A DNA stretch of 46,478 bases from a virus. The position numbers and the translations under genes were made by a program. Positions 1,180 through 32,400 of this stretch are shown here, piece by piece. The stretch lies in the IMG/VR virus record IMGVR_UViG_3300044695_000631, positions 1 through 46,478 of that record. One strand, given 5' to 3'. The notes beneath the pieces were generated by a model. The model worked only from the letters and a program-made list of their open reading frames with translations, was not told the DNA's origin and did not search any database. Numbering within the stretch: position 1 is the stretch's first letter; each line of letters starts with the position of its first letter.

Positions 1180-1430
1180 GCGACGTAGGACACAACAGTG
1201 CGGGCGATCCGCTCCGGCTTCTGATCGAGCGCATTGAGCGTCTCGAAGAGGAGAAGAAGGGTGTCGCGGAGGATATAAGGGACGTGTACAGCGAGGCTAA
1301 GGCCCGTGGGTATGTGCCGAAGATCATCCGCGAGATCATCCGCATTCGCAAGATGTCGAAGGACGACAGGGACGAGCATTTCGCGATACTCGACACTTAT
1401 GCCTCGGCTATTGGCTTAGACTTACTTTAA
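1176..1430 (+). CDS. DUF2312 (GapR-like) DNA-binding protein
   Basis: An 84-residue helical protein with the DUF2312 pattern: an opening GHNSAGDPLRLLIERIERLEEEK, then a long coiled-coil helix, then a second helical part with VPKIIREIIRIRKM. GapR, the characterised member in Caulobacter, wraps overtwisted AT-rich DNA and helps topoisomerases ahead of replication and transcription. The family is concentrated in alphaproteobacteria and their phages, which makes this gene the best host clue in the window. It starts with GTG, overlapping the preceding TGA (GTGA), so it is probably translationally coupled. It is the last gene before a strong terminator. A role in managing supercoiling of phage DNA is inferred. 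Confidence 0.82.
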   Translation: MSDVGHNSAGDPLRLLIERIERLEEEKKGVAEDIRDVYSEAKARGYVPKIIREIIRIRKMSKDDRDEHFAILDTYASAIGLDLL

Positions 1431-1442
1431 GTCTATAGTCAC

Positions 1443-1490
1443 GGTGTGCCCGCCCCCTATCCACCCTTCAGGGCGGGCACACCTTCTTTC
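1443..1490 (+). terminator. Rho-independent terminator after the GapR-like gene
   Basis: A perfect 13-bp GC-rich stem (1443-1455 paired with 1471-1483, GGTGTGCCCGCCC and its complement) with a 15-nt loop, followed by TTCTTTC. It begins 12 bases after the DUF2312 stop codon. The tail is T-rich but interrupted by C, so termination may be partial, allowing some read-through to the polymerase genes. The T-rich tail is also part of the 5' arm of the next hairpin. Confidence 0.8.
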
Positions 1491-1564
1491 TGGCGAGCCG
1501 CGCGCGGGTGCGGGTTGCTCCTGCGTTGCTGATACACGAAGCGCGCGGCTCACCCGAAAGAAGG
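1482..1564 (+). promoter_or_regulatory. Long hairpin leader covering the ribosome binding site of the HTH gene
   Basis: Bases 1482-1505 pair with 1541-1564: 22 of 24 positions are Watson-Crick pairs, with mismatches only at 1491/1555 and 1494/1552. The 35-base loop spans 1506-1540. The 3' arm ends in GAAAGAAGG, which contains most of the AAGGAG Shine-Dalgarno sequence for the ATG at 1574. Folded RNA would therefore hide the ribosome binding site. It sits immediately downstream of the terminator stem, sharing only two bases with it. Translational control, a processing site, or a DNA-level protein site are all possible; the pairing itself is directly visible. Confidence 0.7.
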
Positions 1565-1573
1565 AGTATCAGC

Positions 1574-1867
1574 ATGAAACTTACAATCCCACAAATCCGC
1601 GAAGAAGTGCAGCAGCTCACGGCTGAAAGCACAAGGCTGGCCTACCGGCAGCACAAGATCAACGCACGCATAGACGCGTTGATGCAGGAGACGTACCGCC
1701 GCAGCTACACACGCGCGCCTGTCACCAGCCGCCGCATCACCGCTGGCGTTCGTGCGTCGGTGCGCCACATGGCTGCCAACAATCCAGACGCATCGCATCA
1801 AGAGATTGCCGAAGCACACAACATCAACATCGGGCGCGTCAGCGAGATCCTGCACGGCAAGCGATGA
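1574..1867 (+). CDS. Small helix-turn-helix DNA-binding protein
   Basis: A 97-residue basic protein. The first half is helical with coiled-coil character (IREEVQQLTAESTRLAYRQ). The second half reads as a helix-turn-helix: residues near 60-97 include ASVRHMAANNPDASHQEIAE and then HNINIGRVSEILHGKR, the spacing of a homeodomain-like or resolvase-type HTH. The ATG at 1574 was chosen over an upstream GTG at 1508 because AAGGAG lies 8 bases before it and because the longer version would be encoded by the hairpin leader. Its stop overlaps the DNA polymerase start (ATGA). A likely role is regulation of this module, perhaps including its own leader; no target is known. Confidence 0.7.
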   Translation: MKLTIPQIREEVQQLTAESTRLAYRQHKINARIDALMQETYRRSYTRAPVTSRRITAGVRASVRHMAANNPDASHQEIAEAHNINIGRVSEILHGKR

Positions 1868-3828: not shown

Positions 3829-3832
3829 GATT

Positions 3833-4111
3833 ATGGCGGTCGAATACAACGAATACAACATCACATTTCTGTACGGGTTTATGGAGCCGGACGGTGGCGC
3901 ATCGTTCAGTTTCAACGCCGACACGCCCCGCAAGCTGATCCTGACCAAGGAGCGGTGTTTCGAGGCCGCCAACGCCGACATGGCGACTGTGCTGGTCAAG
4001 GACGGAAGGCCCAAGGCTAAGTGCGATGCCGATCGCGCGTACCTGCACTACATCATCGACTGTTGGCTTGACGGCAAGTCAGTCGACTTGCAGCCGAGTG
4101 AATTGGACTGA
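3833..4111 (+). CDS. Hypothetical protein in the replication module
   Basis: A 92-residue, mildly acidic protein that I do not recognise. It begins MAVEYNEYNITFLYGF, has a central segment with single cysteines (KERCFEA and KAKCDADRAYL) and ends in LQPSELD. There is no membrane segment or clear motif. AAAGGA precedes the ATG, and it lies 5 bases after the polymerase stop and 4 before the VRR-NUC gene, so it is co-transcribed with replication genes. Its position between polymerase and nuclease suggests an accessory role in DNA metabolism, but nothing in the sequence shows this directly. Confidence 0.7.
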   Translation: MAVEYNEYNITFLYGFMEPDGGASFSFNADTPRKLILTKERCFEAANADMATVLVKDGRPKAKCDADRAYLHYIIDCWLDGKSVDLQPSELD

Positions 4112-4114
4112 GGA

Positions 4115-4393
4115 ATGACGCCCGCAGGACGCCTACAGGACCACCTCAAGCACGTTGTGCAGAAGAGTGGGGGTCAGTACCGCAAGGTGCGCTGGGAGGG
4201 CCGTAACGGCTGCCCTGACTGCTTTGTGTGGTGGCAGTGGCCACACATCGCCTTCATCGAGATTAAGGCTCCGGGCGACCGCTACAGCAAGCTTCAGGAG
4301 CGCGAGATCGCGCGCATGAAGGACGCTGGCATCCCGGTCTATACTGTGTCGACGATCGAGGGCATCGACTTTGTGGTGTCGGAGATCCGCTGA
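4115..4393 (+). CDS. VRR-NUC domain nuclease
   Basis: A 92-residue, single-domain VRR-NUC protein. The PD-(D/E)XK core is visible as G-C-P-D (Asp35), then IEIKAPG (Glu49 and Lys51), then LQ (Gln61) followed by a helix and the C-terminal strand pair (GIPVYTVSTIEGIDFVVSE). Stand-alone VRR-NUC proteins of phages are thought to act as structure-specific nucleases, possibly Holliday-junction-resolving, and usually sit beside a SNF2-type helicase, as here. The stop overlaps the helicase start (TGATG). The family call is firm; the exact DNA substrate is inferred. Confidence 0.88.
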   Translation: MTPAGRLQDHLKHVVQKSGGQYRKVRWEGRNGCPDCFVWWQWPHIAFIEIKAPGDRYSKLQEREIARMKDAGIPVYTVSTIEGIDFVVSEIR

Positions 4394-5757
4394 TGGCTAA
4401 GACTTTCACGCCCCACGACTATCAGGAAGAGGCCCTCGCGCACCTATACAAGGAGCGCAGGGCAGCCCTGTGGATGCCAATGGGCGGCGGGAAGACCGTA
4501 ACCACCCTGACGGCTCTGGAGGCCTTGTCCGTGGTCGAGGAGGTCTACCCAGTCCTTGTGCTTGCCCCGCTGCGCGTCGCGAAGACGACGTGGCCTGACG
4601 AGGTCGAGAAGTGGCCTCACCTGTCGCACCTACGCGTCAGCGCCATTACAGGGACGCCGAAGCAGCGCGAGCGCGCGTTGGCCAAGGAGGCCGACATCTA
4701 CACGACCAACTACGACAACCTTGTCTGGCTGCGCAAAGAGCTGGGCGACGCGTGGCCCTTCAAGACCGTGATCGCGGATGAGTTCACTCGGCTGAAGTCC
4801 TTCCGGCTGCGGCAGGGCGGATCTCGCGCCCGCGCCTTGGGCGAAGTGGCGCACACGCAAGTCAGCCGCTTCATCGGCCTGACAGGGACGCCAGCGCCGA
4901 ACGGCGTCAAGGATCTGTGGGGCCAGATCTGGTTTCTCGATCAGGGCGAGCGGCTGGGCCGCACGTTCAGCGCCTTCGAGCAGCGGTGGTTCCGCAAGGG
5001 GTATGACGGCTACAGCCTCATGCCTTACGATCACACGCAGAGCGAAGTGGAAGAGCGGCTTAGGGACATCTGCCTGACCGTGCGCGGGCTGCCAGTCGAC
5101 GAGCCGATCAACAACCCGATCTACGTTGACCTGCCGCCTATGGCGCGCAAGGTCTATGACGACATGGAGACCGAGATGTACGCCGTCCTGAACGACGAAG
5201 GCGTCGAGGCGGCCAACGCGGCTGTGCGGACGCAGAAGTGCTTGCAGCTCGCCAACGGTGCGCTGTATATTGATGACGAAGGAAACTGGGAGGCGGTTCA
5301 CGATGCCAAGCTGGACGCGCTGGATAGTATCATTGAGGAAGCTAACGGCGCGCCCGTGCTGGTGGCCTACAATTTCAAGCACGACTTGGCCCGGCTACAG
5401 AAGCGTTACCCTAAAGGCCGTGTCTTGGACACTAACCCTGACACGGTCCGGCAGTGGAACCGAGGGGAAATTGGGTTACTATTCGCTCACCCTGCGTCTG
5501 CGGGGCACGGATTGAACCTTGCCGACGGCGGGAACATTCTCGCCTTCTTCGGCGTTAACTGGAACTTAGAAGAGCACATGCAGATCATCGAGCGCATCGG
5601 CCCTATGCGTCAGAAACAGGCAGGCTACGATCGCCCTGTCTTCATCTACCCGATCCTCGCCCGCGACACGGTCGACAGCCTCGTTATGTACCGCCTCACG
5701 TCTAAGAAGAGCGTGCAGGAGGTTCTACTGGAAGCGTTAAAAAGGAAAAAGAAATGA
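4393..5757 (+). CDS. SNF2-type superfamily 2 DNA helicase/translocase
   Basis: 454 residues with ordered SF2 motifs: a Q-motif-like HDYQEEAL, Walker A MGGGKT (residues 30-35), motif Ia-like VLVLAPLRVAKTTW, motif II IADEFTRLKS (Asp129-Glu130, DEF in place of DEAH), motif III LTGTPAPNG (163-171), motif V SAGHGLNLADG and motif VI QIIERIGPMRQKQ. The compact size and lack of other domains match phage SNF2-like translocases paired with VRR-NUC nucleases. It probably remodels or unwinds DNA during replication and recombination. It starts on the stop of the nuclease gene and its own stop overlaps the next start (ATGA). I see no separate DnaB-type helicase or primase in the window. Confidence 0.92.
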   Translation: MAKTFTPHDYQEEALAHLYKERRAALWMPMGGGKTVTTLTALEALSVVEEVYPVLVLAPLRVAKTTWPDEVEKWPHLSHLRVSAITGTPKQRERALAKEADIYTTNYDNLVWLRKELGDAWPFKTVIADEFTRLKSFRLRQGGSRARALGEVAHTQVSRFIGLTGTPAPNGVKDLWGQIWFLDQGERLGRTFSAFEQRWFRKGYDGYSLMPYDHTQSEVEERLRDICLTVRGLPVDEPINNPIYVDLPPMARKVYDDMETEMYAVLNDEGVEAANAAVRTQKCLQLANGALYIDDEGNWEAVHDAKLDALDSIIEEANGAPVLVAYNFKHDLARLQKRYPKGRVLDTNPDTVRQWNRGEIGLLFAHPASAGHGLNLADGGNILAFFGVNWNLEEHMQIIERIGPMRQKQAGYDRPVFIYPILARDTVDSLVMYRLTSKKSVQEVLLEALKRKKK

Positions 5758-6086
5758 ACATTATCAAAGAAATCAACGAAGAGATCAATGAGGCGGCAAA
5801 GATGCCAGAGCCAAAGGCCGCCGAGTTGCTTGGGCGCGCTGCGGCGCACATGCACGAGCGATCGGCAACCTATGACGATCTGGACGGCGAGCGGTCAATG
5901 AGCAAGATCGTGACGGCCTTCAACGCCATCACAGGCCGCGACCTGACCGAGAGCGAGGGCTGGATGTTCATGCAGCAGGTCAAGCTGGTGCGTCTGTTCA
6001 CGCGCAGCGAATACCACGCCGACAGTGCGGAGGATAACATAGCCTATGCCGCGTTGCTGGCCGAAGCGAAGGGGGATGGACGATGA
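5754..6086 (+). CDS. DUF6378-like phage protein
   Basis: A 110-residue protein matching the DUF6378 layout: a stretch with ERSATYDDLDGERSMSKIVTAFNAI, then a helix with MFMQQVKLVRLFTRSEYHADSAEDNIAYAALLAEA. The spaced K-x2-R and H-x-DS-x2-D elements are typical of this widespread phage family, whose function is unknown to me. Some workers compare the fold with all-alpha NTP pyrophosphohydrolases, but I cannot confirm that here. The start overlaps the helicase stop and the stop overlaps the next start (ATGA), so it belongs to the replication operon. Confidence 0.7.
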   Translation: MNIIKEINEEINEAAKMPEPKAAELLGRAAAHMHERSATYDDLDGERSMSKIVTAFNAITGRDLTESEGWMFMQQVKLVRLFTRSEYHADSAEDNIAYAALLAEAKGDGR

Positions 6087-6331
6087 CGCACGATGCACGA
6101 CGGAAACTGGAACAGGACATGTGCGTTGACGCAGATGCGTGGGCAAAAGCTTTTATGGGGATAAAAAAAGAGGCTGACCCCCATGAAGTCAGCCTCTGGT
6201 TCTCTTCTTGCCTATCGACCGCGTTTATGCACGGACAGCAAAGTCCTCGTTATGCTTCTTTACAGCAAGGCCACCTTCCGAAAAATAACGAAACCTCTTA
6301 TAGTCCCCCGCCTTCGTCGGTTGCAGCCTAA
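6083..6331 (+). CDS. Small hypothetical protein at the end of the early operon
   Basis: An 82-residue frame starting at an ATGA overlap with the DUF6378 gene. The first 50 residues look protein-like (EQDMCVDADAWAKAFM, then DPHEVSLWFSSCLSTAFMHG). The last 30 (HLPKNNETSYSPPPSSVAA) look less so and overlap the 3' end of the convergent virion gene by 107 bases. The terminator hairpin of the leftward operon lies inside this frame. The gene may be a real short protein whose end has drifted, or the ancestral stop may have been lost. Coupling to the upstream gene supports translation; no function is known. Confidence 0.5.
   Translation: MTHDARRKLEQDMCVDADAWAKAFMGIKKEADPHEVSLWFSSCLSTAFMHGQQSPRYASLQQGHLPKNNETSYSPPPSSVAA
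6163..6197 (-). terminator. Terminator of the leftward late operon
   Basis: A perfect 10-bp stem, 6169-6178 (AGAGGCTGAC) with 6188-6197 (GTCAGCCTCT), and a 9-base loop. Read on the minus strand it is followed by a run of seven T (A-run at 6163-6169, the last base shared with the stem). It starts 28 bases past the stop of the last late gene. On the plus strand the stem is followed only by a mixed pyrimidine tract, so any termination of the early operon here would be weaker. Confidence 0.9.
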
Positions 6332-8354
6332 ACTCACTGTCTTTGCTGTAGTTTTTGTGTCCGGTCAGCCCGTGGGCCGCATCCACAGCACGCATCTGTT
6401 CAACGCTAAGCCTTGGGATCTTCTCAAGGCCGGGGAACATGTTTTCGTGTGGTTCGAGGCGTTGTCTGATACGGTCCCAGATATTCCACTGGTTGCCAAA
6501 TAGATGCAAGCCTGATCCCGCCATAGCAGCCTCATTGGCTCCGACCACATCTTTGTATGTCTGCCCCATCAATTCAGCTTTTTGCGGTTCAGAAATCCAA
6601 TCAACGTCCGCAAGGTATTCAGGAACCGCTGGGTTTACATCACCGGATTTGACGCGAAACTTTGGTGAAGGGGAGTTACCGACTTCCGACAAGAGTAACT
6701 CTTGTATCAAACCCTTGTTCAGGTCTTCGAAAGAAGTAGGAGCTTCTTTTCCCTCTTTTGCCGCCCGCATAGCCGCAAGGTTAAGCGCTCGTTTTTGGAA
6801 AGCCTCGCGTTTAACGGGATCAGCAAGAATTGTGTCCATGTACCTGTTGGCCATGTGACGATCAATCGCAGAAACACCTGCATCGGGCTGCCACGCAACG
6901 CCAAACGACCCTGTTTTGTTTGATAGGCCCGGAACCTGCGTTGCCATACGTTCAACAAGGCCGGTCCAGTCCTCCCCCTCTTTCCGGTGGAAGAAAGCTG
7001 GATCACGCCGAAACAGATCGAGGAAATCCGTGTAACCAGAATAGTCAACGCTGCCCCGTGCGCCGATACCACCCTTCGAAGCGGCACCCAATCCCATCCG
7101 ATTAGCAAGCGTGTCGCTAAAGGCTTCTCTCTGTTCTTTCGTGACTGCGTCCGTAAGTTCCCACGGCCTGCTGTTTATGACGCGATCCAGATCTTCCATC
7201 GAGTTCATGCGAAGACGGGATGTGGCAAGTTGATTTGGTGTGAGCGGGTTGTTGGGAGATGTATATCCAAAGGTCAGACCTGAAAGCACCTTGGCGTCGG
7301 AGAGACCTTGCGGCTCGTCCATCGACAGCATCAGTTTCCTTTGGATGCCACGGTGCAGTTCGGGGTCGATCTTTGATGGATCAATCCCCGAAGCCTTCAT
7401 CTTCGCCATATCTTCGTATGTGAACTTGCCTTCAAGCCCACCGGGTATTTCAAAACGCTCGCCGCCTCCCATTTCGTAAGGGAAGGAGACAGGTTCGTTC
7501 AACGGGCCAAGGTTCTCGACGCCCAATGTATCGCCGAGATCAGCCATCTGGCTGCTAGTCAGTTCCCAAGGCTGCAAACCCTTAAACGTAAGAGGTACAT
7601 TTTCCTCAGCATTAAAAGAGCCAGACACGGATGCGGGTAAAGAAGGCGCTGTTTCAGGCAACGGGGTCCGCGTTTGAGCAAGTGGCTTTTGGTTGGCGCT
7701 AGGACCAGAGCGGGCAGCACTGAAGCGCTGTATCGCCCTTGATGGTTTGGCCTCTGGTGTAACCTTCAGTTCCGAGGCCTTCGTCGCTGCCTTCTTCGCG
7801 CCTTTAATGGCTGTCTTCTCTGCGGCCTTAATCGCATTGCGGACAGCAACCCCTGCGGGCCGCCCAATAATAGGCAGCGCGGACAGAATAGCAGTTCCGG
7901 CCATCGCCTCCATCGCCTCTGCCTCGTCCTTGCGGCCCTGCGCACGGAGCTTGCGTGCGGTCTCGCGGACGTCGCCGAAATCACGAATGCCTGCGGGTAT
8001 AGATGCGATGGCGTCTTCAATAAACGCGTTCGGGTTTTCCACCGCCGCGTCGATCGTGGATTTAGCGATGCCCTTGACGTCACGCGCCACGCTTGAGGGC
8101 GACGACGACTTGATGTAGTTCACCACGCGGCTCGGTATCGACGCAATCCCGCTGCCGAGTTTGTCTACGTTCGCCATCGCCGCTTCATTGGCGCGGCGTC
8201 TCTCGGCCTGCTTCGCCTCAAAGCGACGCTTCTGAGTTGCCTTCGGGCTTTGCTTGCGCACGGCAAGAGGTTTTGCCGACGGGTCAGGCACGACCACGTA
8301 CCGACCCAACTCGTCGTCAAATACTTCAAGCCCAAACGTGTCGCCAGCAGCCAT
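6225..8354 (-). CDS. Large virion-associated protein, probable internal/ejection protein
   Basis: 709 residues, the last gene of the leftward operon. The first 120 residues are basic and helical (QKRRFEAKQAERRRANEAAM). Residues about 145-210 are Ala/Lys-rich with a hydrophobic patch (AILSALPIIGRPAGVAV). The C-terminal half is a soluble domain with SAIDRHMANRYM and GLTGHKNYSK, ending in YFSEGGLAVKK. I do not recognise an enzyme. Its size, Ala-rich amphipathic helices and position after the tail hub and other large structural genes fit an internal protein ejected with the DNA. The Gly-Gly tail motif recurs in other virion proteins here. The role is inferred from context. Confidence 0.6.
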   Translation of the reverse strand: MAAGDTFGLEVFDDELGRYVVVPDPSAKPLAVRKQSPKATQKRRFEAKQAERRRANEAAMANVDKLGSGIASIPSRVVNYIKSSSPSSVARDVKGIAKSTIDAAVENPNAFIEDAIASIPAGIRDFGDVRETARKLRAQGRKDEAEAMEAMAGTAILSALPIIGRPAGVAVRNAIKAAEKTAIKGAKKAATKASELKVTPEAKPSRAIQRFSAARSGPSANQKPLAQTRTPLPETAPSLPASVSGSFNAEENVPLTFKGLQPWELTSSQMADLGDTLGVENLGPLNEPVSFPYEMGGGERFEIPGGLEGKFTYEDMAKMKASGIDPSKIDPELHRGIQRKLMLSMDEPQGLSDAKVLSGLTFGYTSPNNPLTPNQLATSRLRMNSMEDLDRVINSRPWELTDAVTKEQREAFSDTLANRMGLGAASKGGIGARGSVDYSGYTDFLDLFRRDPAFFHRKEGEDWTGLVERMATQVPGLSNKTGSFGVAWQPDAGVSAIDRHMANRYMDTILADPVKREAFQKRALNLAAMRAAKEGKEAPTSFEDLNKGLIQELLLSEVGNSPSPKFRVKSGDVNPAVPEYLADVDWISEPQKAELMGQTYKDVVGANEAAMAGSGLHLFGNQWNIWDRIRQRLEPHENMFPGLEKIPRLSVEQMRAVDAAHGLTGHKNYSKDSEFRLQPTKAGDYKRFRYFSEGGLAVKKHNEDFAVRA

Positions 8355-22867: not shown

Positions 22868-23095
22868 TCACAAAGGGCGGATAACCGCCGTGTCCGTGTC
22901 TTTATAAAACTCCATACACCCTTTGCACGCAATATTCCAGTCCGGACCGTCAGCTTCTGACCAACTAGGCACCAGTATGCGGACGTGACGCGCCAAGTGT
23001 TCTTTGTCATCTTCAAATACGCGCCAGACATGCTCGGACGAACCGCGCCCCGGTTGCCCTGCGGACTTGTTAAATCGGATGCGGAAGTGGCTCAC
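22868..23095 (-). CDS. Hypothetical protein
   Basis: A 75-residue protein with FRIRFNKSAGQPGRGSSEHV, then WRVFEDDKEHLARHVRI, and a C-C pair (IACKGCMEFYKD). The His and Cys residues (H42-R-x-H-type spacing and C-x2-C) could bind metal but no known finger is recognised. The ATG overlaps the stop of the preceding gene by ATGA. Oxygenase genes lie just upstream in the operon; no function can be assigned. Confidence 0.6.
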   Translation of the reverse strand: MSHFRIRFNKSAGQPGRGSSEHVWRVFEDDKEHLARHVRILVPSWSEADGPDWNIACKGCMEFYKDTDTAVIRPL

Positions 23096-23484
23096 TCCGG
23101 TGGGTTAGGTAGTTTGAAGTTATCTGGGAACGCCGTTGAGGCGTGCACGCGACGAAGCTCGCGGCGATATTCAATCCACTCTGCGCGCTTACCGGCAGTG
23201 ATGGGTTCATCAGGCAGAACGCGGTAGTCGCACTCACGCAGCCGATCCCAAGTCTCTTGGCGGATTAGGTCCTCGCGGCTGGCGGGTTCTGGAGGTGGAG
23301 GCTTATCCCCAACGTAGAACCAACCTGTACCAACGTGCTCAGGGCCAATCCACGACAGATCGCCCAGCTTGTCTTCGAAGTTAGCAAGACCGAATACTGG
23401 CCCCCAATTCTCAGGAAGCTCCTGCGGCTCCGTCAGCGTCTCGCCCGTTGCTAAGTTTTTCAACTGCCACAGCTTGTTCGGCAT
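23092..23484 (-). CDS. Tail-fibre-associated chaperone-like protein
   Basis: 130 residues. The C-terminal half, IRQETWDRLRECDYRVLPDE followed by AGKRAEWIEYRRELRRVH and a Pro/Asn end, matches the W-x2-L/R...D-x-R-V-L-P-D...W-x2-Y-R-x2-L-R pattern of phage tail fibre or tail assembly chaperones that follow fibre genes. The N-terminal half (WQLKNLATGETLTEPQELPE) is specific to this phage. AAGGA lies ahead of the ATG even though the gene overlaps the upstream frame by 74 bases. It probably helps fold or trimerise the glycine-rich fibre protein encoded two genes upstream. Confidence 0.65.
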   Translation of the reverse strand: MPNKLWQLKNLATGETLTEPQELPENWGPVFGLANFEDKLGDLSWIGPEHVGTGWFYVGDKPPPPEPASREDLIRQETWDRLRECDYRVLPDEPITAGKRAEWIEYRRELRRVHASTAFPDNFKLPNPPE

Positions 23485-23908
23485 ATTCTTCGTTCCTTAG
23501 CACGGGAGTGTCACCGGGTAGGTTTTCGTATCCAATCTGCTTTCCTACCCCCATGTGCAAGGCCATGTCATTTGGGAAAGGCGCGTGGCCGTTTAGGTGT
23601 AATCGCTCTTCTTCCGAAACTCGCCAGTCACGCCACGAGGAAAAGTCACGGCGCGGTGCGAGGTTTATATGGCAACCCACATTCGCCGCGAGTTGGTGGA
23701 TAAGCTCAATGACCTCCACAGGCTGCATGAGAGACCACACAAAACGTCCATCGTTGCAGCGCATACCAATCTCGGTCGTGCCGCCAAAGGCAGTCCCTAC
23801 GGTAATAGATCGAGCACGGTTGAGGTCACCCATCCGGCTCTCTTCGCTCATGCGGCGATCTATCTTCAGCATCTCTTCTTCATGCTGCTTGTCTATACCT
23901 TCAGACAT
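23411..23908 (-). CDS. Hypothetical protein between fibre and chaperone genes
   Basis: 165 residues from the ATG at 23908, which overlaps the stop of the glycine-rich gene (TAATG). The protein is soluble with a helical start (MSEGIDKQHEEEMLKIDRRM), a beta-like middle (TAFGGTTEIGMRCNDGRF, VWSLMQPVEVIELIHQLA) and a polar C-terminus with PNDMALHMGVGKQIGYENLP. I do not recognise it. Its last 24 codons overlap the next gene in another frame. A role in fibre assembly is suggested only by the neighbours. Confidence 0.6.
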   Translation of the reverse strand: MSEGIDKQHEEEMLKIDRRMSEESRMGDLNRARSITVGTAFGGTTEIGMRCNDGRFVWSLMQPVEVIELIHQLAANVGCHINLAPRRDFSSWRDWRVSEEERLHLNGHAPFPNDMALHMGVGKQIGYENLPGDTPVLRNEEYAEQAVAVEKLSNGRDADGAAGAS

Positions 23909-24909
23909 TACTGCGGGTTCCACGATATTACAACTTGTCCGCCCGGAGATCCGACAGTAATCGGGAAAGACCCTCCGGGTGTTACAGGGCGGGAATTAAC
24001 AGTCGAGGGGTTTGGAGATGTACCGGGGTTACCGGGGTTGGCTGGCGTAGCTACGCCGCCACGACCGCCGCCACCGCCGCCGCCGCCATAGACAGGAACA
24101 CAAGTGGCGGTGCAAAAAAGACCGCCTCCTCCTCCTCCACCAGAACGCGCTACAAAAAGACTAGCAGCAGTGCCGCTACCGGCGCACGAAATGCCTCCGG
24201 GTCCACCTCCGGAACAACCCCCACTACCGGGTGTAGCCCCGGAGGCGGCACTTCCTGAGTTAACGTCCCCCGCACCGCCGCCGCCAGCCAAACACCCCCT
24301 GCCGCCGCTGGGAGACCCACCCGGACCCCCGCTGCCGGGTGAATTATTGCATACTACGCTGTAACAACCACAGACAAAGAATAGAGTGCCACGGTTTCCC
24401 CCATTCCCACCAGTTCCGCCCGCGCCTTGCGTCCCGCCTGTACCGGCGTTACCTTGTGCCCCACCGGGGAATGTCTGACTTAGGCCGGTAGATGGGTTCC
24501 CCGCGCTACCTGCCGTGCCGGGATTGCCCGATGACCCAGAGAACCCTGTACCACCGGCGCTACCGTTCCCCCCACAAGCCGAACCACCTCCTACAGCGGT
24601 AGGAATGCTGCCGCCGCCAGTGCCGCCATTGCCACCAGCCCCATTATTAACGGCTCCGGAAACGGGGTGGAACCATCGCGTCCCACCACCACCGCCGCCA
24701 CCGCCGCCTTTGCCGGGACCCGGGGAGGCGCAAGGCGCAGGGTTTCCTGCATTGCCGGGGTTACCATTACCGCCTTTGCCGGTGATGTTTACCACCGATA
24801 TACCTGTGGGCACAACGAAAGTACCCGGCGAGTTAAACGTCGAAGTGCCGCCCGGCGTTAACGACACGCCGCCGCCAAACAACGTAACTTTGGATGTTCC
24901 TGTAGGCAT
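23908..24909 (-). CDS. Glycine-rich adhesin-like fibre protein with collagen-like motifs
   Basis: 333 residues from the ATG at 24909 (TAATG with the upstream oxygenase gene). A short beta N-terminus (TFNSPGTFVVPTGISVVNIT) is followed by about 240 residues dominated by Gly, with runs such as GKGGGGGGGGGT, and many Gly-x-Pro elements (GNPGNAGNP, SGNPGTAGSAGNP, NPGNPG). This composition resembles polyglycine-helix adhesins of phage fibre tips (T-even gp38 type) and glycine-rich fibre domains. Pro at collagen Y positions is what prolyl hydroxylases modify, and four oxygenase genes lie directly upstream. Host recognition is the likely role; modification is a hypothesis. Confidence 0.72.
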   Translation of the reverse strand: MPTGTSKVTLFGGGVSLTPGGTSTFNSPGTFVVPTGISVVNITGKGGNGNPGNAGNPAPCASPGPGKGGGGGGGGGTRWFHPVSGAVNNGAGGNGGTGGGSIPTAVGGGSACGGNGSAGGTGFSGSSGNPGTAGSAGNPSTGLSQTFPGGAQGNAGTGGTQGAGGTGGNGGNRGTLFFVCGCYSVVCNNSPGSGGPGGSPSGGRGCLAGGGGAGDVNSGSAASGATPGSGGCSGGGPGGISCAGSGTAASLFVARSGGGGGGGLFCTATCVPVYGGGGGGGGRGGVATPANPGNPGTSPNPSTVNSRPVTPGGSFPITVGSPGGQVVISWNPQ

Positions 24910-25499
24910 TACGATCTCCAAACGCTAGGGTGGCCCGCGCCGGAGCGCTTATCCCAATGGTACTCAGTAAACAGGCCGTTCTTTTCAACATAGTGTAACA
25001 TAAACTGGGCGTTCACTTTAGCATGTATCATCTTGTTACGCCAGTGGTAGACCTCGCAACCTTTATATATCACAGCGTCGCCGGGATTAAGGGTAACCTT
25101 CGTAGGTTCGGCGTCCCCGTACTGCATCCAGATTGGCCACGGCTCGCCATCGCAAGCAACATTAACAGTAACAGAATACTCGCACGATGGTCTGTCCACA
25201 TGCCTCTCAAGCTCATCGCCCTCAACATACACACGGCTGTAGGAATACGTGGGTAGCAACTCCTTACCGACTATGGCCTCCACAGCTTCTCGGCTATTTA
25301 CCAGCATAACCTCCATCAATGGGTCCGCATACCGTGCGTACTGACTGGGGTTATTCGACGACGGTCCCGTGCCTTCACCCCTATCCGTGTATAGCGTGTC
25401 TTTCAGCGCGTACTCCATGTACCGAGACACTACACTGGCGTCTTCGGGCGACATGAAGTTAGGGACTACTTGGTAAGTGAAAGCGGTCTCATTACTCAT
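24909..25499 (-). CDS. 2-oxoglutarate/Fe(II) oxygenase 1
   Basis: 196 residues with the double-stranded beta-helix signature: ERHVDRPSCEYSVTVNV gives His100-x-Asp102, LNPGDAVIYKGCEVYHW gives distal His152, and a nearby basic residue (Lys161) could bind the 2OG carboxylate. The family couples decarboxylation of 2-oxoglutarate to hydroxylation of proteins, lipids, small molecules or nucleic acids. The substrate is unknown. It overlaps the next oxygenase gene by 8 bases and abuts the glycine-rich fibre gene. It differs in length and motifs from its three neighbours, so the four are not simple recent copies. Confidence 0.85.
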   Translation of the reverse strand: MSNETAFTYQVVPNFMSPEDASVVSRYMEYALKDTLYTDRGEGTGPSSNNPSQYARYADPLMEVMLVNSREAVEAIVGKELLPTYSYSRVYVEGDELERHVDRPSCEYSVTVNVACDGEPWPIWMQYGDAEPTKVTLNPGDAVIYKGCEVYHWRNKMIHAKVNAQFMLHYVEKNGLFTEYHWDKRSGAGHPSVWRS

Positions 25500-26085
25500 A
25501 GTAGAACCATCCGGTGACTATGTACTTGCTCCGGTCACACAAGACAGGGTTACCTCTGTGCGCGTGGGTAAACGTAGCGGGCCATAACAGCATAGTGTTA
25601 GCTTCGGGGTTTATGCGCCTGCGCTGGTAAAGGAACTCGGTCTCGCCGCCATCGCCATCGCTAAGTGTGTTTAGATATAGCATGTAGACCAGCACCCGGT
25701 CGGCATGCTCACCGTTACCTTGCTCGCCGTGCCAGACGTGGTAGCCGCCGCCGGGATCGGTGCGTTGCATTTTCATGTGCGTGGCTCGAATGCGACCATT
25801 CTTTAGCACCGAGAAATGCTCTGCGTAATCTTCGTAGCAGTTCTGCAAGCCTTTAAAGAACATATTCTCTACCGAAGCGTCTTCAAACGGCGTAGCGGTA
25901 TGCACGCCCATGTTCAACCCGAGTTGCATATCATCTTTGACGTGACGCGCAGCACCTTCGCCGTTTTGCCTATTAGTCCCAGCGCCACTCTGCGTCAGAC
26001 GTTCAAACTCCGCAATCAAGTGCTCGCAATACCCGTCAGGATACACGTCGGGGTACAACTTAATAAAGTCTTCTTGATTGCTCAT
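25492..26085 (-). CDS. 2-oxoglutarate/Fe(II) oxygenase 2 (prolyl-hydroxylase-like)
   Basis: 197 residues from the ATG at 26085 (ATGA with the upstream gene). The core reads GGGYHVWHGEQGNGEHADR, with His119-x-Glu121 as a likely facial-triad pair, then MLYLNTLSDGDGGETEF, the P4H-like strand, then TFTHAHRGNPV with His176 and KYIVTGW with Lys187 for 2OG binding. The Y-L-N...G-G-x-T-x-F and H-x-G-x-P-V...K-Y-I elements are classic for prolyl-4-hydroxylase-type enzymes. The iron ligand is Glu instead of the usual Asp. A protein substrate is plausible; it is the best candidate for a prolyl hydroxylase here. Confidence 0.88.
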   Translation of the reverse strand: MSNQEDFIKLYPDVYPDGYCEHLIAEFERLTQSGAGTNRQNGEGAARHVKDDMQLGLNMGVHTATPFEDASVENMFFKGLQNCYEDYAEHFSVLKNGRIRATHMKMQRTDPGGGYHVWHGEQGNGEHADRVLVYMLYLNTLSDGDGGETEFLYQRRRINPEANTMLLWPATFTHAHRGNPVLCDRSKYIVTGWFYYE

Positions 26086-26669
26086 CGGAAAGGTGGTCCT
26101 GAAATCCATGCCACGAGAGACTGACGTGTCCCTTGCGTGACGGGTGTGACTTGATGGAGAGTGTACGCCGGAAACACAGCTATAAGCCCCCGCTGTTTGC
26201 GGACGTTCTTTGGCTCGCCGCCCGTCATGACTTGGAGGTTGCCGCCTTCATATTGCGCTGGGTCTGTCAACTGAAGTACGAGGCTCAACTTGCGGCTCGG
26301 CGCGTTATTCCCACCGTAGTCTTGGTGCCAGCCATACATGCCATGCTCGGACTGATTGTAGTTGGTTAGCTGTATAGCCTCGCCAAACCCCGTCAGATCA
26401 AAACGATAACACTCGGCGTTCAAAGAAGACGCGGCATGTGCCAGCTTCTCAAACACCCAAGCGGTTTCGGGTGTTTTGTTGATCCATGAAACTTGCGAAC
26501 GGCGGATGTTGTTAAGCTCGTCACCACTTGGATTTCCGCCCACCTGCGCTCGCTGATCGGCGTTCTTGGCCTGCTGCTGCAACCAATCAAGCTCTTGCTC
26601 CGTGAACGCGCCTTCCCACCAGACGAAGGGTTCGGTCGGCATGGCGTAGGGTGTTAGCAAGTGCTGCAT
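26082..26669 (-). CDS. 2-oxoglutarate/Fe(II) oxygenase 3 (PKHD type)
   Basis: 195 residues from the ATG at 26669, chosen because AAGGA precedes it; a longer frame would be encoded inside the upstream gene. YGWHQDYGG gives His115-x-Asp117, LHQVTPVTQGTRQS gives His172 and Arg182, and EGGNLQV lies between, the full PKHD-hydroxylase pattern. The N-terminal helical part has FTEQELDWLQQQAKNADQ. All canonical residues are present, so activity is likely. The substrate is unknown. It overlaps the fourth oxygenase gene upstream by 16 bases and the second by ATGA. Confidence 0.9.
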   Translation of the reverse strand: MQHLLTPYAMPTEPFVWWEGAFTEQELDWLQQQAKNADQRAQVGGNPSGDELNNIRRSQVSWINKTPETAWVFEKLAHAASSLNAECYRFDLTGFGEAIQLTNYNQSEHGMYGWHQDYGGNNAPSRKLSLVLQLTDPAQYEGGNLQVMTGGEPKNVRKQRGLIAVFPAYTLHQVTPVTQGTRQSLVAWISGPPFR

Positions 26670-27247
26670 GGGCGATCCTTGTGGGATATGATGAAGTGCA
26701 GGCACCGCGTCGGTGTCTCGGCGTTCCCGCCTACAAGCTGGTGCTGCATCCATGAGTTGGCGAGGAGAACAGTCCCCGGCTGCATATTATTAAAATGGAT
26801 GCTGTTTGTAGCGTTCGTCACTTCGTCGCTAGATGCGAAGTCAAGCTCAACCATCGCCTTGTTCATACGCGTGTCGTGGTAGATTGGGTACGCACCACCT
26901 TCAGGGGCGTCCATAAAAAACCAGCCAGCAACCTGACTGTTCTTATGCACGTGGACGTTAGTCCCTGCCCCCTTCTTCACCTCCTGCGCCCAGAGGCCGG
27001 AAATATAAAAGTCGTAGCGCTCAACTGCGTACCCCTGCCCTCGCAGGATTTCTACGGCTGAGACTAGCAAATAGTCAGATAGCTCACGGAGCGCAGGCTC
27101 GTGAGCGAGAAATGCCGACTGGCACATGAGCGATGCCTCATCACGCACCTTGTCCAACTGCTCTAAACATGTCGGAAGGACGCGCTCTATGAGATCAGGC
27201 CGCTCGTCCCTGTACACAATGGCAGGGAAATAGGCAAAACCCTGCAT
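26654..27247 (-). CDS. 2-oxoglutarate/Fe(II) oxygenase 4 (TIGR02466-like)
   Basis: 197 residues. The core NVHVHKNSQVAGWFFMDAPE supplies His99 and/or His101, and LLANSWMQHQLVGGN gives His169 with Arg181 in ETPTRCLHFIISH. This follows the H-x-H...S/A-G-x-x-Y/F...P-S-W-x-x-H...R pattern of a 2OG-Fe(II) family (TIGR02466) common in marine and cyanobacterial phages. The N-terminal 80 residues are helical. Start and stop overlap both neighbours. As in other members, the reaction is assumed to be hydroxylation; the substrate is not known. Confidence 0.82.
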   Translation of the reverse strand: MQGFAYFPAIVYRDERPDLIERVLPTCLEQLDKVRDEASLMCQSAFLAHEPALRELSDYLLVSAVEILRGQGYAVERYDFYISGLWAQEVKKGAGTNVHVHKNSQVAGWFFMDAPEGGAYPIYHDTRMNKAMVELDFASSDEVTNATNSIHFNNMQPGTVLLANSWMQHQLVGGNAETPTRCLHFIISHKDRPCSTC

Positions 27248-27492
27248 TACTCACCAATGTAGTTAGTAAGCTCTTGAGCAAACGCGGAAATTTCTGCGGC
27301 AGTAATGGCCGCGTCGCCAACGGGCTTATTACGGGCGTTTTCGATAAGGGTCTCCTTCGCCAAGCGGATAAGCTCCAGCTTTGCGCGGCGTGCCTCCATC
27401 TCCTGCTCATGTTCCCGACGGGCTTTTTCAGCCTCCAGATGCATGGCCTGCTGCGCGGCCTGTTGTGCCTGCATTTCTTCCGTTAAAGCCAT
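27247..27492 (-). CDS. Small coiled-coil protein
   Basis: 81 residues, almost entirely one charged helix (MQAQQAAQQAMHLEAEKARR, EHEQEMEARRAKLELIRLAK) with a short C-terminal helix (AAEISAFAQELTNYIGE). It sits between a fibre-like gene and the oxygenase group and shares a base with the next start (TAATG). Possibly an assembly factor or adaptor; not recognised. Confidence 0.65.
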   Translation of the reverse strand: MALTEEMQAQQAAQQAMHLEAEKARREHEQEMEARRAKLELIRLAKETLIENARNKPVGDAAITAAEISAFAQELTNYIGE

Positions 27493-27508: not shown

Positions 27509-28402
27509 TTAGGCTATCATGTTCTTCATCGAGATATTGCCATAATATGTCGTGCCGTTATCTGGCGTAAAGAATACCCAAATGTCAACAGCATTCGCAG
27601 TTGTCGTGCGAGAAAGCGCCGCAGCACCTCCGGGGAAGCGGAACGTACCGCCAGCCCATGCGACTGTTCTGCTCGCCGTTGCGTCGTTCGTCAGGATCAA
27701 CGTGAAAGACGAGCCACGGCTTGCGTTGGCGTTTGAGTTTGCCAACGTGAAGGTGCAGTTGCCGGTGAGCGTAGCGGTAAAGACGTTACCCTGATTAAGA
27801 TTGATTGTGGTGGCTGTGCCCGAGTTACCCAGCGCAACGACCTCATCTGAGTAAACTGCTTCGAGGTAGCCAGCACTGGTGAGCCTAGCAACTTCTGCGC
27901 CATTAGTGCTGAACGCAAGCGTGTCAGCCGCTGGAGACCACATGCCGGTGTTAAGGTCACCCGTGAACGTGTGGGACGGCGTGCCTACCGCCCCGAGTGC
28001 GGTGGCAACGCTTGTAGCACTCGCAGCGCCAAGGGTCGGGGTAATGAGTGTTGGTGAACTGTTAAGTACGACGGAGCCAGTTCCGGTCGAGGCGGTGACG
28101 CCTGTACCGCCGTTAGCAACGGCAAGCGTGCCAGCAAGCGTGATAGTTCCGCTACTGGTGATTGGGCCGCCCGATGTAGTAAGACCAGTCGTTCCGCCGC
28201 TAACATCAACCGAAGTGACAGAGCCTGCCGATCCGCTGTTAGATGCAAGCAGTTTGACGGTACCAGCCGCATTTTTAAAATACAGCTTTTCGTCGGTCAG
28301 GTTAATGGCAAGCTCACCCGCAGCAAGGTCGCCCGCGACGGGGGCAGCAGCCGCCGTGCTTGTTCTGTAAAGTTGGATTGGCGTGAAATTCGATTGCGCC
28401 AT
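27509..28402 (-). CDS. Tail fibre-like protein
   Basis: 297 residues. The N-terminus (MAQSNFTPIQLYRTSTAAAA, then GDLAAGELAINLTDEKLYFK) is the common phage fibre start domain. Then come fibre repeats (SVDVSGGTTGLTTSGGPITS and GTLAVANGGTG), a 65-residue unit (116-180) that is also in the 1072-residue fibre, and a C-terminal beta domain with TATLTGNCTFTLAN and DIWVFFTPDNGTTYYGNISM. The stop is followed by the small coiled-coil gene; the start overlaps the previous stop (TAATG). It is probably a receptor-binding or side fibre. Confidence 0.75.
   Translation of the reverse strand: MAQSNFTPIQLYRTSTAAAAPVAGDLAAGELAINLTDEKLYFKNAAGTVKLLASNSGSAGSVTSVDVSGGTTGLTTSGGPITSSGTITLAGTLAVANGGTGVTASTGTGSVVLNSSPTLITPTLGAASATSVATALGAVGTPSHTFTGDLNTGMWSPAADTLAFSTNGAEVARLTSAGYLEAVYSDEVVALGNSGTATTINLNQGNVFTATLTGNCTFTLANSNANASRGSSFTLILTNDATASRTVAWAGGTFRFPGGAAALSRTTTANAVDIWVFFTPDNGTTYYGNISMKNMIA
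27863..28057 (-). repeat. Copy A of a 65-codon unit shared by two fibre genes
   Basis: It encodes residues 116-180 of the 297-residue fibre, from SPTLITPTLGAASATSVATA to SAGYL, including FTGDLNTGMWSPAADTLAF. By my count 45 of 65 residues match copy B at 29828-30022. The unit ends before an unrelated C-terminal domain in each protein. Confidence 0.8.
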
Positions 28403-28632
28403 TAGAAAGTACCTCCGTCGATGCCGCCAAACGACGGTGTAGATGCGCCATTAGATAACAGAACTTGACCAGTAGTTCCAGCAGAAGTGAATGCGTATGC
28501 CGTTCCCGTGCCATATGCAACAGCGCCCGCAGTGGGAGCGGCGGTTCCGTTCGTCCCGCCATTACCAACAGGCAACGTGCCTGTGGCCGTTGATACGTTT
28601 GCCGGGGGAAGAATACTTGAAAGAGTGGCCAT
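28402..28632 (-). CDS. Short fibre-repeat protein
   Basis: 76 residues from the ATG at 28632 (TAATG with the previous stop). It contains only fibre-type repeat sequence: TGTLPVGNGGTNGTAAPTAG, then GTTGQVLLSNGASTPSFGG, ending DGGTF. The same VGTTGQVL element is in the 1072-residue fibre, and the 402-residue fibre-like protein ends similarly (DGGAF). It may be a structural spacer, or the remnant of a longer fibre split from the following gene; each has its own start, so I annotate it as a gene. Confidence 0.62.
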   Translation of the reverse strand: MATLSSILPPANVSTATGTLPVGNGGTNGTAAPTAGAVAYGTGTAYAFTSAGTTGQVLLSNGASTPSFGGIDGGTF

Positions 28633-29492
28633 TAAACATTCCCTGTACTTGTTGATGGGAAGGCGCGACCAGCGCCCCAAATAATTCTTACTGCACCACC
28701 AGCGCCCGGACCGTTTTCATCAGCAACTTCAGCACCGCCACCGCCGCCGCCATATGCGCCACCTGTTGACGGCGTTGCGGTAGATCCGGGGCTTGCCGAG
28801 CCATCCGCTCCGCCAGAACCACCAAAACCAGAAGTGCCATTGCTCCCGTTATACGTCCCACCGGCACCGTTAGAACCTTGGCCAAGTATTCCTACACCCC
28901 CGCCAGCACCCGCAGCATCAGCAGTACCGCCAGAACCACCACCACCACCGCCGCCACCGGAACCAGTTCCTGCGTTGTCAGTATCGATGTTGCCAGCGGC
29001 ACCACCATTTCCTGAATACCCGGCAGCGCCACCTCCACCAGTAGCATCAGAGGCCGAACCATGTGAGGGAACATTACCACCGTTTCCGCCACCGTCCCCA
29101 GTATAAGTTCCGCCAGTTGCGCCCGAGTTAAGTACTCCTCCCCCACCACCAAAACCAGCAACGGTTGCAGTACTTACAAAATAACTATCACCGCCGTTCC
29201 CTGCCGAAGTATTTGTTGCCCTAACTCCCCCGGCTCCTACGACTACAGTATAGCTTGTTCCGGGGCTGACAGATATATTATTTTTCCAACCAAGGCCGCC
29301 ACCAGCGCCACCCCAACCACCAGAGCCGTTCTGACTTTGCCCACCACCGCCACCGCCAACAGCAACGACGCACACACTCGTAACCCCCGCAGGGCAGACC
29401 CATGAGTAGGTTCCGGGTGTAGTGTAGGCGTCTTGACCCGGCGGAGCGACAAAGGCGTTTACTCCAGCCAGAGCGCAGAGAACACCCGTCAT
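28632..29492 (-). CDS. Glycine-rich domain fibre/adhesin protein
   Basis: 286 residues from the ATG at 29492 (ATGA with the previous stop). The N-terminus resembles a secretion signal (MTGVLCALAGVNAFVAPPG) but is probably just hydrophobic. Next is YTTPGTYSWVCPAGVTSVCV, then VAVGGGGGG, the beginning of the glycine-rich (Gly_rich_2) domain common in phage fibres, then about 190 residues of Gly-rich repeats, and the closing AGGAVRIIWG, typical of this domain. It is a second glycine-rich protein besides the one at 23908-24909 and likely forms or caps a fibre tip. Confidence 0.75.
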   Translation of the reverse strand: MTGVLCALAGVNAFVAPPGQDAYTTPGTYSWVCPAGVTSVCVVAVGGGGGGQSQNGSGGWGGAGGGLGWKNNISVSPGTSYTVVVGAGGVRATNTSAGNGGDSYFVSTATVAGFGGGGGVLNSGATGGTYTGDGGGNGGNVPSHGSASDATGGGGAAGYSGNGGAAGNIDTDNAGTGSGGGGGGGGSGGTADAAGAGGGVGILGQGSNGAGGTYNGSNGTSGFGGSGGADGSASPGSTATPSTGGAYGGGGGGAEVADENGPGAGGAVRIIWGAGRAFPSTSTGNV

Positions 29493-32400
29493 GTCACGTT
29501 CCCTGTAGCCACCCACACCGTCGAAGTGACCTTAACCAGTGTCGCAAGGCCGTATTGAGCCAAAGTGCGTGAGCCAGTTGTGGCTGTACCTGCCAACCGC
29601 AACGTGTCAGTCGTGATACTAATTGTCTGGCTGCTGCCGCTATTGTTAAAGACCACAATCGTTGCGCCGATAGGGAACGCCACAGAAGCGTTTGCGGGGA
29701 TCACCACACCGCCAGTCGTGATGCTGATGTGTTTGCCCATATCGGACAACGCCAGCGTGTATGCCGATACTTGGCTGTTCTGCGGCAGACCCTTGTAGCC
29801 AACCGCATCAGCGAGATCGGGGGATGTGATGCCGCCTGTGCTGAGAAGACGCAGGGCCTCGACGCCGCCTTCTACAAACGCAAGGGTGTCGGCTGCGGGG
29901 GAGTATATCCCCGTGTTTGTGTCACCTGTGAAGGTATAGCTTGGTGCGCTCACAGAGCCAAGTGCGGCTGCAATGCTTGTGGCCGAAGCCGCGCCGAGGG
30001 TAGGTGTGACAAGGGTTGGGCTGTTTGACAGCACAACATCGACAGTACCTGTTGAAGTAGTTACGCCTGTACCGCCGTTGGCCACAGGCAATGTGCCGGT
30101 GACTTCAGATGTAAGGCTAACGGTTCCAGCAGTGAAAGCCGAGGTACCATTACCTTTAACAATACCCGTGAGCGTCGTAGCGCCTGTGCCGCCGTTGGCC
30201 ACGGCAAGCGTCCCCGTCAGGTCGCTCGTTGGGATCGTAGCTGAAGCAGTGAAAGGCGAAGTGCCGCTACCCTTAACGTAACCAGTCAACGTAGCCACAC
30301 CCGTGCCGCCACCCGTCACTTGGGTAACGCCCGATCCGCCTGCGCCGCCAGTTTGCGCAAACACGTTCCAAGTCGTGCCGCTATAAACAAGCTGGATGCT
30401 GACGTTGGAGAGGTCGCAGACGAGATTTTCAGCCAAGCCCTCGATGGTGGAGCCATTGCGGCCAACCGTGAGGTTGTTTGTGGCCCACGAACTAGATGTA
30501 TCGACAACGATAACCTGATCGCCAACAGCCGGAGTGGCTGGAAGCGTAACCGTGAAGGCTCCGCCGGAAGTGTCAGTCTGCACACCCTCGCTGTCGGTGG
30601 CGGTATAGCTAGACGTTTTGACCGTAGTGTACGTTATGCCACCGGATGAGGGGGGTTGCGATGACCACACCGTGCCATCGCTGGTCAGGACGTTCCCTGC
30701 GGTGCCTACCGAGGATATGCCCGTGCCGCCGAGGCTAACAGCTACAGGAGCGGTTAGGCTGAATTGCGTGCCGGTCAGTGTCAAGCCCGCGCCAGCCGAG
30801 TAAATCTGCGCGGATGAAATCTGCGCAAAGGTGATGTTTGTCGTGCCAAACGTAATCGTACCCACAGTATTGCAGGTATAGGTCTCACCTGCGCCGGTCG
30901 TGCCCTGTTGGACAAAGACGGTCGAGCCTTCGCTCAGACCGTTTGGACTAGCGTTGACGTAAGTGTCCGCGTCACTGGAACGCGTCAGTACCCAGTTGGT
31001 CGAGACGCTACCTACGGTTGTCACGACATAGATGCCGTTCTGCGTCTGATCGGTCTGCTCATAAACTAAAACGCGGTCAGCGGCGCTAACCGTCACGCCA
31101 TCAATAACCAGTGCGGCCTGAGTGCCAGCATTGGTCAGCGTTGCGCCGACCCCAGCAGTCCCGTTGTTGTACGTTGCGTTCAGGTTGAGTGGTGCCTCAA
31201 CCCGGACCGGCGCGTGGAAGTGGATACCAGAGGACACCTGAGTATCCACGTACTGCTTATTGACAAGGTCATTGTTGCTCGCTGGTGCCGTGCTGATCGT
31301 GCCCGTGGTCAGTGCGATAGACGTGATGTCGGTGTTTGCGCCAGAGGCTGCTGCACTGAGGTTAGTTCTCGCCGTAGCCGCCACGGTTGCGCCAGTGCCG
31401 CCGTTGGCCACAGCAAGTGTGCCTGCAAGGCTTACCGCGCCGGTTGTGGCTGTGGATGGCGTGAGGCCCGTCGTGCCCGCGCTGAAAGAGGTTACGGCAA
31501 CTGATGCGAGTGTGGCCCAAGATGGAGCTGCGGCTGTGTTACCAACCAACACCTGACCCGTTGTGCCGACAGCAGTTGCGGCAATCGCCGAAGTGCCATT
31601 ACCGTACAGGACACCGCTTGCTCCAAGGGTCGTTGCGCCAGTGCCGCCATTGGCAACAGCAAGCGTGCCGCCAAGGGTCAGCGTGCCCGATGATGTGATC
31701 GGGCCGCCAGTGAACGAAAGCCCAGTCGTGCCGCCGCTGGCATCAACGGATGTGACCGTGCCGGGGTTGGTGGTCGAGGTAATGGTGAAGTTGGGGTACG
31801 TGCCGCTAATGGACGTGCCACCCGCGCCAGTCAGCGCCACAACTTGGTCGGGTGCCGTGTTGACCACTGTGATAGAGCCAGAGGTCGTGATAGGGCCGCC
31901 CGAGACACTGATGCCCGTGCTTGCCGTCAAGTTAATGCTGGTGACTGTGCCGCCGCCGATAGGTGCCTGCCACTCTGGCGGAGCCACGCCGCCAGCCGAT
32001 ACCAGTACATCGCCTACGTTACCAGACGTGGGCGTCAGATAAAGCGCGTTGTTGCTGGAATACACAACGGCACCGACAACAGGAGACAGACTGTTGCCGG
32101 TGCCTCCACGGGACAAGGGGAGCACGCCTTGAGTTTCCGTGGTGTCGCTCAGGTCCACCGCTGGGTGGACGTGATCTTCACGCGCGGCAACAGTCGAGAC
32201 ACCGGGGGTTCCGGGACCGAGAGGCTCAGGCGTTGTAGTCGAAAAGTTTACGGCGAAGGAACGGTTGACGGAGAGGTCTCCACCGCCCGTAAGACCGTCG
32301 CCAGCCGTGATTGTGCGGTTGATGGGGACGTAATCCGGAAGCACGATGAGTGTCGAGGTCGCAGCCGTGATACGCCCCTGTGCGTTGACCGTGAGGACCG

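Follow-up and report, generated by a model that had tools for sequence, protein, structure and literature searches.

Four different oxygenase-type genes beside a glycine-rich gene of a phage: a candidate system for hydroxylation of a collagen-like protein

What is the role of four different oxygenase genes arranged in one overlapping run next to the gene of a glycine-rich protein? This question is raised by the IMG/VR virus record IMGVR_UViG_3300044695_000631, the 46,478 bases of which constitute the window analysed here. The window is the whole record and contains genes for DNA polymerase, helicase, terminase, portal, internal virion protein and tail fibre. Its sequence characterizes it as a podovirus-like phage, and the portal shares 64% identity with the portal of Caulobacter phage RW. 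On the minus strand, the tail-fibre gene H is followed by G (81 amino acids), the four oxygenase-type genes A, B, C and D, the glycine-rich gene E, and K and L (Table 1). Adjacent open reading frames (ORFs) overlap by 16 (A/B), 4 (B/C), 8 (C/D) and 1 base (D/E, with E starting at 24909). Since most late genes of this phage are closely packed, such overlap is in itself nothing special. We favour, with moderate confidence, the interpretation that A-B-C-D-E is one operon and that A-D would hydroxylate the neighbouring collagen-like protein E, chiefly at prolines in the Y position.

A preliminary description of this DNA had placed four oxygenase ORFs at 24909-27247 and had interpreted them as a set that modifies virion fibres. 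The coordinates, the overlaps and the motif residues were confirmed, and, judged by Pfam, PHROGs, alignments and the fold of D, the four minus-strand genes encode four different double-stranded beta-helix (DSBH) oxygenases. They belong to distant families and thus, as already proposed, tandem duplication is ruled out. All four genes are intact, and comparison with close relatives gave ratios of nonsynonymous to synonymous substitution (dN/dS) of 0.06-0.16 (0.13-0.16 for A), which indicates strong purifying selection.

Pfam membership was judged by the curated cut-off, and A, B and C all scored above it. For A (PF13759, 1.4e-9; phrog_81) we found that H99xH101/H169 is invariant among relatives, and the HxH element is also present in the solved but uncharacterised PF13759 homologues 3bvc and 2rg4. 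A thus belongs to this oxygenase family, but canonical 2-oxoglutarate (2OG) chemistry remains putative for it. In B (PF13640, 5e-15; phrog_61) the residues H115xD117/H172/R182 are all invariant among relatives, and a profile search of the PDB identified PKHD-type hydroxylases as nearest (4e-12), followed by prolyl 4-hydroxylases (P4Hs; 2e-5). For C (PF13640, 1.6e-13; phrog_61), with H119xE121/H176/K187 invariant among relatives, the only significant matches were P4Hs, and these were weak (5c5t, 3e-4; 3itq/5hv0, 4e-3). We take 5c5t to be the enzyme of PBCV-1 and 3itq/5hv0 to be that of Bacillus anthracis. Both P4Hs resemble C and B by profile, but C carries HxE instead of HxD and, unlike these enzymes, is encoded by a tailed phage, in a putative operon that also contains the gene of the proposed substrate and three further oxygenase genes. 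By profile similarity C is P4H-like, and peptidyl-proline hydroxylation is its predicted reaction.

D matched phrog_2954 (1e-50), which is labelled ferrochelatase in PHROGs and GenBank, and gave no Pfam match. H100xD102/H152 is invariant in 39 sequences, as are R154, Q165 and H169, and there is no invariant Arg or Lys at the usual 2OG-binding place some 10 residues beyond the distal His. Profile-profile comparison at the sequence level gave no match between D and B or C; AlphaFold and Foldseek settled the fold. The model is a DSBH with a predicted local distance difference test score (pLDDT) of 87, and it matched EctD, the P. putida P4H, PF13759 structures, PHD2 and AlkB at 1e-7 to 1e-6. Since D has no Pfam match and its fold is that of an oxygenase, we rejected ferrochelatase identity; as far as the model can tell, D is a 2OG oxygenase, and the label of the family is probably wrong. 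The pelagiphage and cyanophage genes that bear the ferrochelatase label are members of family D and are by fold DSBH oxygenases. Ecological arguments that involve a ferrochelatase partner (PMC9599517, PMC11561400) may depend on this mislabel.

The glycine-rich gene directly downstream of D, with its Pro-Gly and Asn-Pro-Gly elements, was recovered as described before, and its linkage to the oxygenases is conserved. A search based on D yielded 12 related loci. In every related contig that extends far enough, an E homologue comes after A-B-C-D (E <= 1e-4 except in locus L013, where the ORF in this place is still glycine-rich), and usually K and L come next, in the order A-B-C-D-E-K-L; the amino-acid identity of A-D in these loci goes down to 36-50%. 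Profile searches with B, C and D extended the survey to over 200 loci, in which the modules ABCD-E, ABC-E, C-E-B-D, giant-E-B and B-A-D were seen. When 3 kb were visible on both sides of ABC and ABCD modules, a glycine-rich ORF was present within 3 kb in 23/23 cases, and in 22 of these 23 it was of the Y-type-proline kind. A Y-type ORF was found near C alone in 0/7 and near D alone in 0/4 cases. Gene order varies among phages: in one type the oxygenases are upstream of E, in another a giant E-like protein precedes them. Of 115 oxygenase genes, 113 have the same direction as the glycine-rich gene.

Because this survey starts from oxygenases, glycine-rich genes were also sampled independently by DNA patterns encoding GNPGNPG or, as control, GGGGGGG. 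Viral contigs were scanned in collection order, not as a random sample, the loci are cut stretches, and only oxygenases similar to A-D were counted. Among the matches listed, an A-D type oxygenase was present in the fetched stretch for 52/72 GNPGNPG ORFs but for only 7/51 control ORFs (Fisher 6e-11). With both flanks visible, the corresponding values among the matches listed were 18/21 and 0/10 (Fisher 6e-6). The linkage of 72% is probably an underestimate, since several of the GNPGNPG loci without linkage are short pieces cut from larger contigs. In the isolates HTVC023P, HTVC033P and Mosig, glycine-rich proteins are encoded close upstream of oxygenase runs. Neither oxygenases nor an E-type gene were found in 42 kb (from 20 kb onward) of Caulobacter phage RW, a core-gene relative, and both were also lacking in the part of the CRP-902 genome covered; for these partly covered genomes the joint lack is suggestive. 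This co-occurrence survey had been set beforehand as a test, and it showed that the oxygenase genes and the glycine-rich genes of the Gly-Asn-Pro type are not distributed independently of each other.

In collagen, the proline preceding glycine (Y position) is the hydroxylated one, and the Gly-X-Pro context of E resembles collagen-type substrates. The linked proteins show a clear Y-proline bias. In glycine-rich ORFs located not more than 300 bp from an oxygenase, the median number of Asn-Pro-Gly elements was 1.45 per 100 amino acids, and it was 0 beyond 1 kb. Pro-Gly exceeded twice the number of Gly-Pro in 68/73 ORFs within 300 bp, compared with 6/28 beyond 1 kb (Fisher 2e-12). E-like relatives of 1400-1600 amino acids near B carry 98-114 uninterrupted Gly-X-Y (GXY) triplets with Y-proline, and the two that were tested matched the Pfam Collagen family at 4e-61 and 1e-42. 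An analysis of E. coli prophage collagens found no Y-proline preference in bacterial and viral collagens and attributed this to the lack of a prolyl hydroxylase (PMC3368898). Those proteins share with the present ones GXY repeats in tailed-phage proteins, but they have neither the Y-proline preference nor a hydroxylase, whereas the proteins described here combine a strong preference with an adjacent oxygenase. This bias is the opposite of the published statement and was counted in favour of proline hydroxylation.

Taken together, the linkage survey and the position of C nearest to P4Hs support the idea that A-D act as a set on their glycine-rich neighbour. Profile search and structure prediction had been proposed as checks of this idea, and they placed C nearest to P4Hs, B nearest to PKHD-type enzymes and then P4Hs, and D among DSBH folds. 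A-D would be catalytically active as Fe(II)/2OG-type oxygenases and would modify the co-made, collagen-like E. In the likeliest reaction C, and probably B, would hydroxylate the prolines of Gly-X-Pro triplets; A and D may target different sites or residues in E. Hydroxylation would stabilise polyproline-II or triple-helical segments; alternatively, hydroxyls may be added to a fast-changing surface protein in contact with the host. We infer that E is part of the virion, and its modification may then influence adsorption.

E lies beside tail-fibre genes and comprises 333 amino acids (34% Gly, 9% Pro), in which Pro-Gly occurs 15 times, Gly-Pro 3 times and Asn-Pro-Gly four times. Among the genes keeping their place it has diverged most (identity of 62-67%, indels, dN of about 0.32), which fits an exposed protein. 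A tblastn search of E against GenBank phages, with the low-complexity filter on, gave no match.

A number of observations weigh against hydroxylation of E. The E of the window is weakly collagen-like, so that the collagen case depends on its relatives: its longest GXY run is 9 triplets, the Pfam search did not detect Collagen (PF01391), and in the AlphaFold model, which has no PDB match, the glycine-rich parts are not resolved (pLDDT 56). In the alignment of A relatives the canonical HxD/E...H metal triad was not found, HxH...H standing in its place. The survey loci are related: 57 of the 73 linked proteins share one N-terminal type, and therefore the P values overstate independence. Unfiltered BLAST on E-like termini, intended to thin the GNPGNPG set, matched almost every glycine-rich protein. 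A scan comparing (GxP)5 with (GPx)5 revealed no difference in oxygenase linkage (3/34 and 7/58 among the matches listed), in part because the (GxP)5 matches included many ORFs that seemed to be off-target high-GC frames. Cyanomyoviruses, among them S-CAM3, S-T4 and P-SSM4, often carry these oxygenases without a Y-proline glycine-rich neighbour, and so do some B-A-D loci (e.g. L097). In L155 an X-proline collagen lies next to B, and in L496:1-6900 a Y-proline collagen-like ORF has no oxygenase in the visible stretch. The L155 locus (943-7509), an exception to the Y-proline rule, encodes two X-proline collagen-like proteins of ~1,100 amino acids each; the downstream one is located near B and carries a Peptidase_S74 chaperone domain towards its end. 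The L496 ORF is cut at its 5' end and comprises 2299 amino acids with 375 Pro-Gly and 3 Gly-Pro.

The target residue within E deserves separate consideration. We regard as unlikely that A-D modify the asparagine (or Thr/Ser) of Gly-Asn-Pro-Gly instead of the proline. Before Pro-Gly, Asn occurs more often than any other residue (790 of about 1450), and GNxG triplets are numerous; the presence of four enzyme types suggests modification of several residues, and among the matches listed the linkage follows GNP repeats, not GxP generally. On the other hand, the profile matches of C and B include P4Hs, and in a separate collagen-like family with Thr/Gln-Pro-Gly and little Asn the gene of B is only 9 bp away, which favours proline over asparagine.

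The published view of such enzymes is a different one. Marine phage oxygenases, including those of S-SCSM1, HTVC023P and Mosig, belong to the same families (phrog_61, phrog_81, phrog_2954) and their runs are often located near tail genes, but unlike in our interpretation they have been described as auxiliary metabolic genes. The cyanophage S-SCSM1 encodes 24 2OG-Fe(II) oxygenases in all (PMC9602691), its ORFs 240-243 forming a run directly before the tail-fibre genes, and runs near tail genes are also present in Mosig, HTVC023P and HTVC033P. Thus, the four-gene run of the window is real, but it is not as unusual as had been suggested, since runs of at least four occur beside tail-fibre genes in the GenBank isolates S-SCSM1 and Mosig. 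2OG-Fe(II) oxygenases occur frequently in marine phages and are enriched in seasonal viruses (PMC11561400), and the papers treat them as metabolic genes without specific investigation of their functions (PMC9602691, PMC3037559). Our literature search, outside which subscription papers and preprints lay, found no link of phage oxygenases to collagen-like proteins and nothing direct on phage tail-protein hydroxylation or a phage prolyl hydroxylase with collagen. Action of A-D on host metabolism (2OG level, lipids, other host proteins), with incidental linkage to E, accords with the published view of cyanophages and pelagiphages (PMC3037559, PMC9602691, PMC9599517) and with the many cyanophages carrying these oxygenases away from glycine-rich genes. 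We judge it improbable, however, because general metabolic genes would not be expected to show so strong a linkage, irrespective of arrangement, to a single kind of protein.

Could the oxygenases and E be cargo of a hypervariable insertion hot-spot for tail genes, without any functional link? Parts of the region beside the tail fibres look recently exchanged. The second glycine-rich protein F is essentially identical to that of locus L002 (3488-4369), whereas A-D are 78-94% identical to their L002 counterparts; in two other relatives F is 36-42% identical. Control glycine-rich genes are also sometimes near oxygenases (the 7/51 given above). Nevertheless, under the same selection these control ORFs were five-fold less linked among the matches listed, and the Y-proline bias depends on adjacency to an oxygenase, so that mere cargo appears quite improbable. 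F had also been considered as a second matching substrate, and this part of the fibre-modification proposal did not hold: F (34% Gly) has neither Gly-x-Pro nor Asn-Pro-Gly. F and the neighbours in pelagiphages match the Gly_rich_2 phage proteins (PF21722), but E and the tested E-like proteins, which are richer in Pro-Gly, do not. Action on nucleic acid (AlkB/TET-like repair or base modification), which recalls the AlkB-like fold of D, an insignificant TET-like sequence match and an earlier proposal of DNA repair (PMC3037559), is very improbable for genes in a structural block, not with replication genes, of which C and B match protein or amino-acid hydroxylases by profile.

Table 1. Genes of the oxygenase region and its surroundings in the window
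Gene	Description	Position	Strand	Basis
A	Oxygenase, PF13759 / phrog_81, HxH...H metal-site motif	26654..27247	-	Pfam, invariant residues, solved homologues, dN/dS
B	Oxygenase, PF13640 / phrog_61, PKHD/P4H-like, HxD...H...R	26082..26669 (longer ORF to 26753)	-	Pfam, motif, PDB profile
C	Oxygenase, PF13640 / phrog_61, prolyl-4-hydroxylase-like, HxE...H...K	25492..26085 (longer ORF to 26109)	-	Pfam, motif, PDB profile
D	Oxygenase, phrog_2954 ('ferrochelatase' label), HxD...H, DSBH fold	24909..25499	-	AlphaFold, Foldseek, motif
E	Glycine-rich protein with Pro-Gly / Asn-Pro-Gly elements, proposed substrate	23908..24909	-	Composition, position, fast evolution
G	81-amino-acid protein just upstream of A, same place in most related loci	27247..27492	-	
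H	Tail-fibre protein upstream of the cassette	27509..28402	-	phrog_7760 tail fiber 1e-10
F	Second glycine-rich protein, Gly_rich_2 domain, without Gly-x-Pro	28632..29516	-	PF21722 3.9e-12
K	Conserved protein after E	23411..23908	-	
L	Conserved protein after K	23092..23484	-	

H is kept nearby in most related loci. Several loci of the survey have further features. L472 (8118-9617), a contig binned in a Verrucomicrobiales metagenome-assembled genome, contains a phage block B-C-E-K-L together with a tryptophan halogenase (PF04820, 3.5e-102), which adjoins a weak sulfotransferase-like neighbour. In L197 (10412-14100) an A-B-C module is followed by three E-like glycine-rich genes and then by X-proline glycine-rich ORFs. 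ORFs labelled DNA endonuclease V are located inside oxygenase runs of L470 (8651-9163) and L016 (5242-5724), but they gave no Pfam match, so that the label is doubtful.

Beyond this locus, we tentatively suggest, giving the idea somewhat less than even credence, that tailed phages possess a collagen-maturation system of their own, in which different 2OG oxygenases encoded together hydroxylate several residues in a phage-encoded surface protein of collagen-like or glycine-rich type, and that this is a main role of many 2OG oxygenases regarded as auxiliary metabolic genes in aquatic phages. If so, small enzyme/substrate pairs for hydroxylated collagen-like proteins would be at hand, and the published view that collagen hydroxylation is lacking in bacteria and their viruses would be contradicted. 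A specific substrate encoded nearby would also change the interpretation of phage 2OG oxygenases as metabolic genes.

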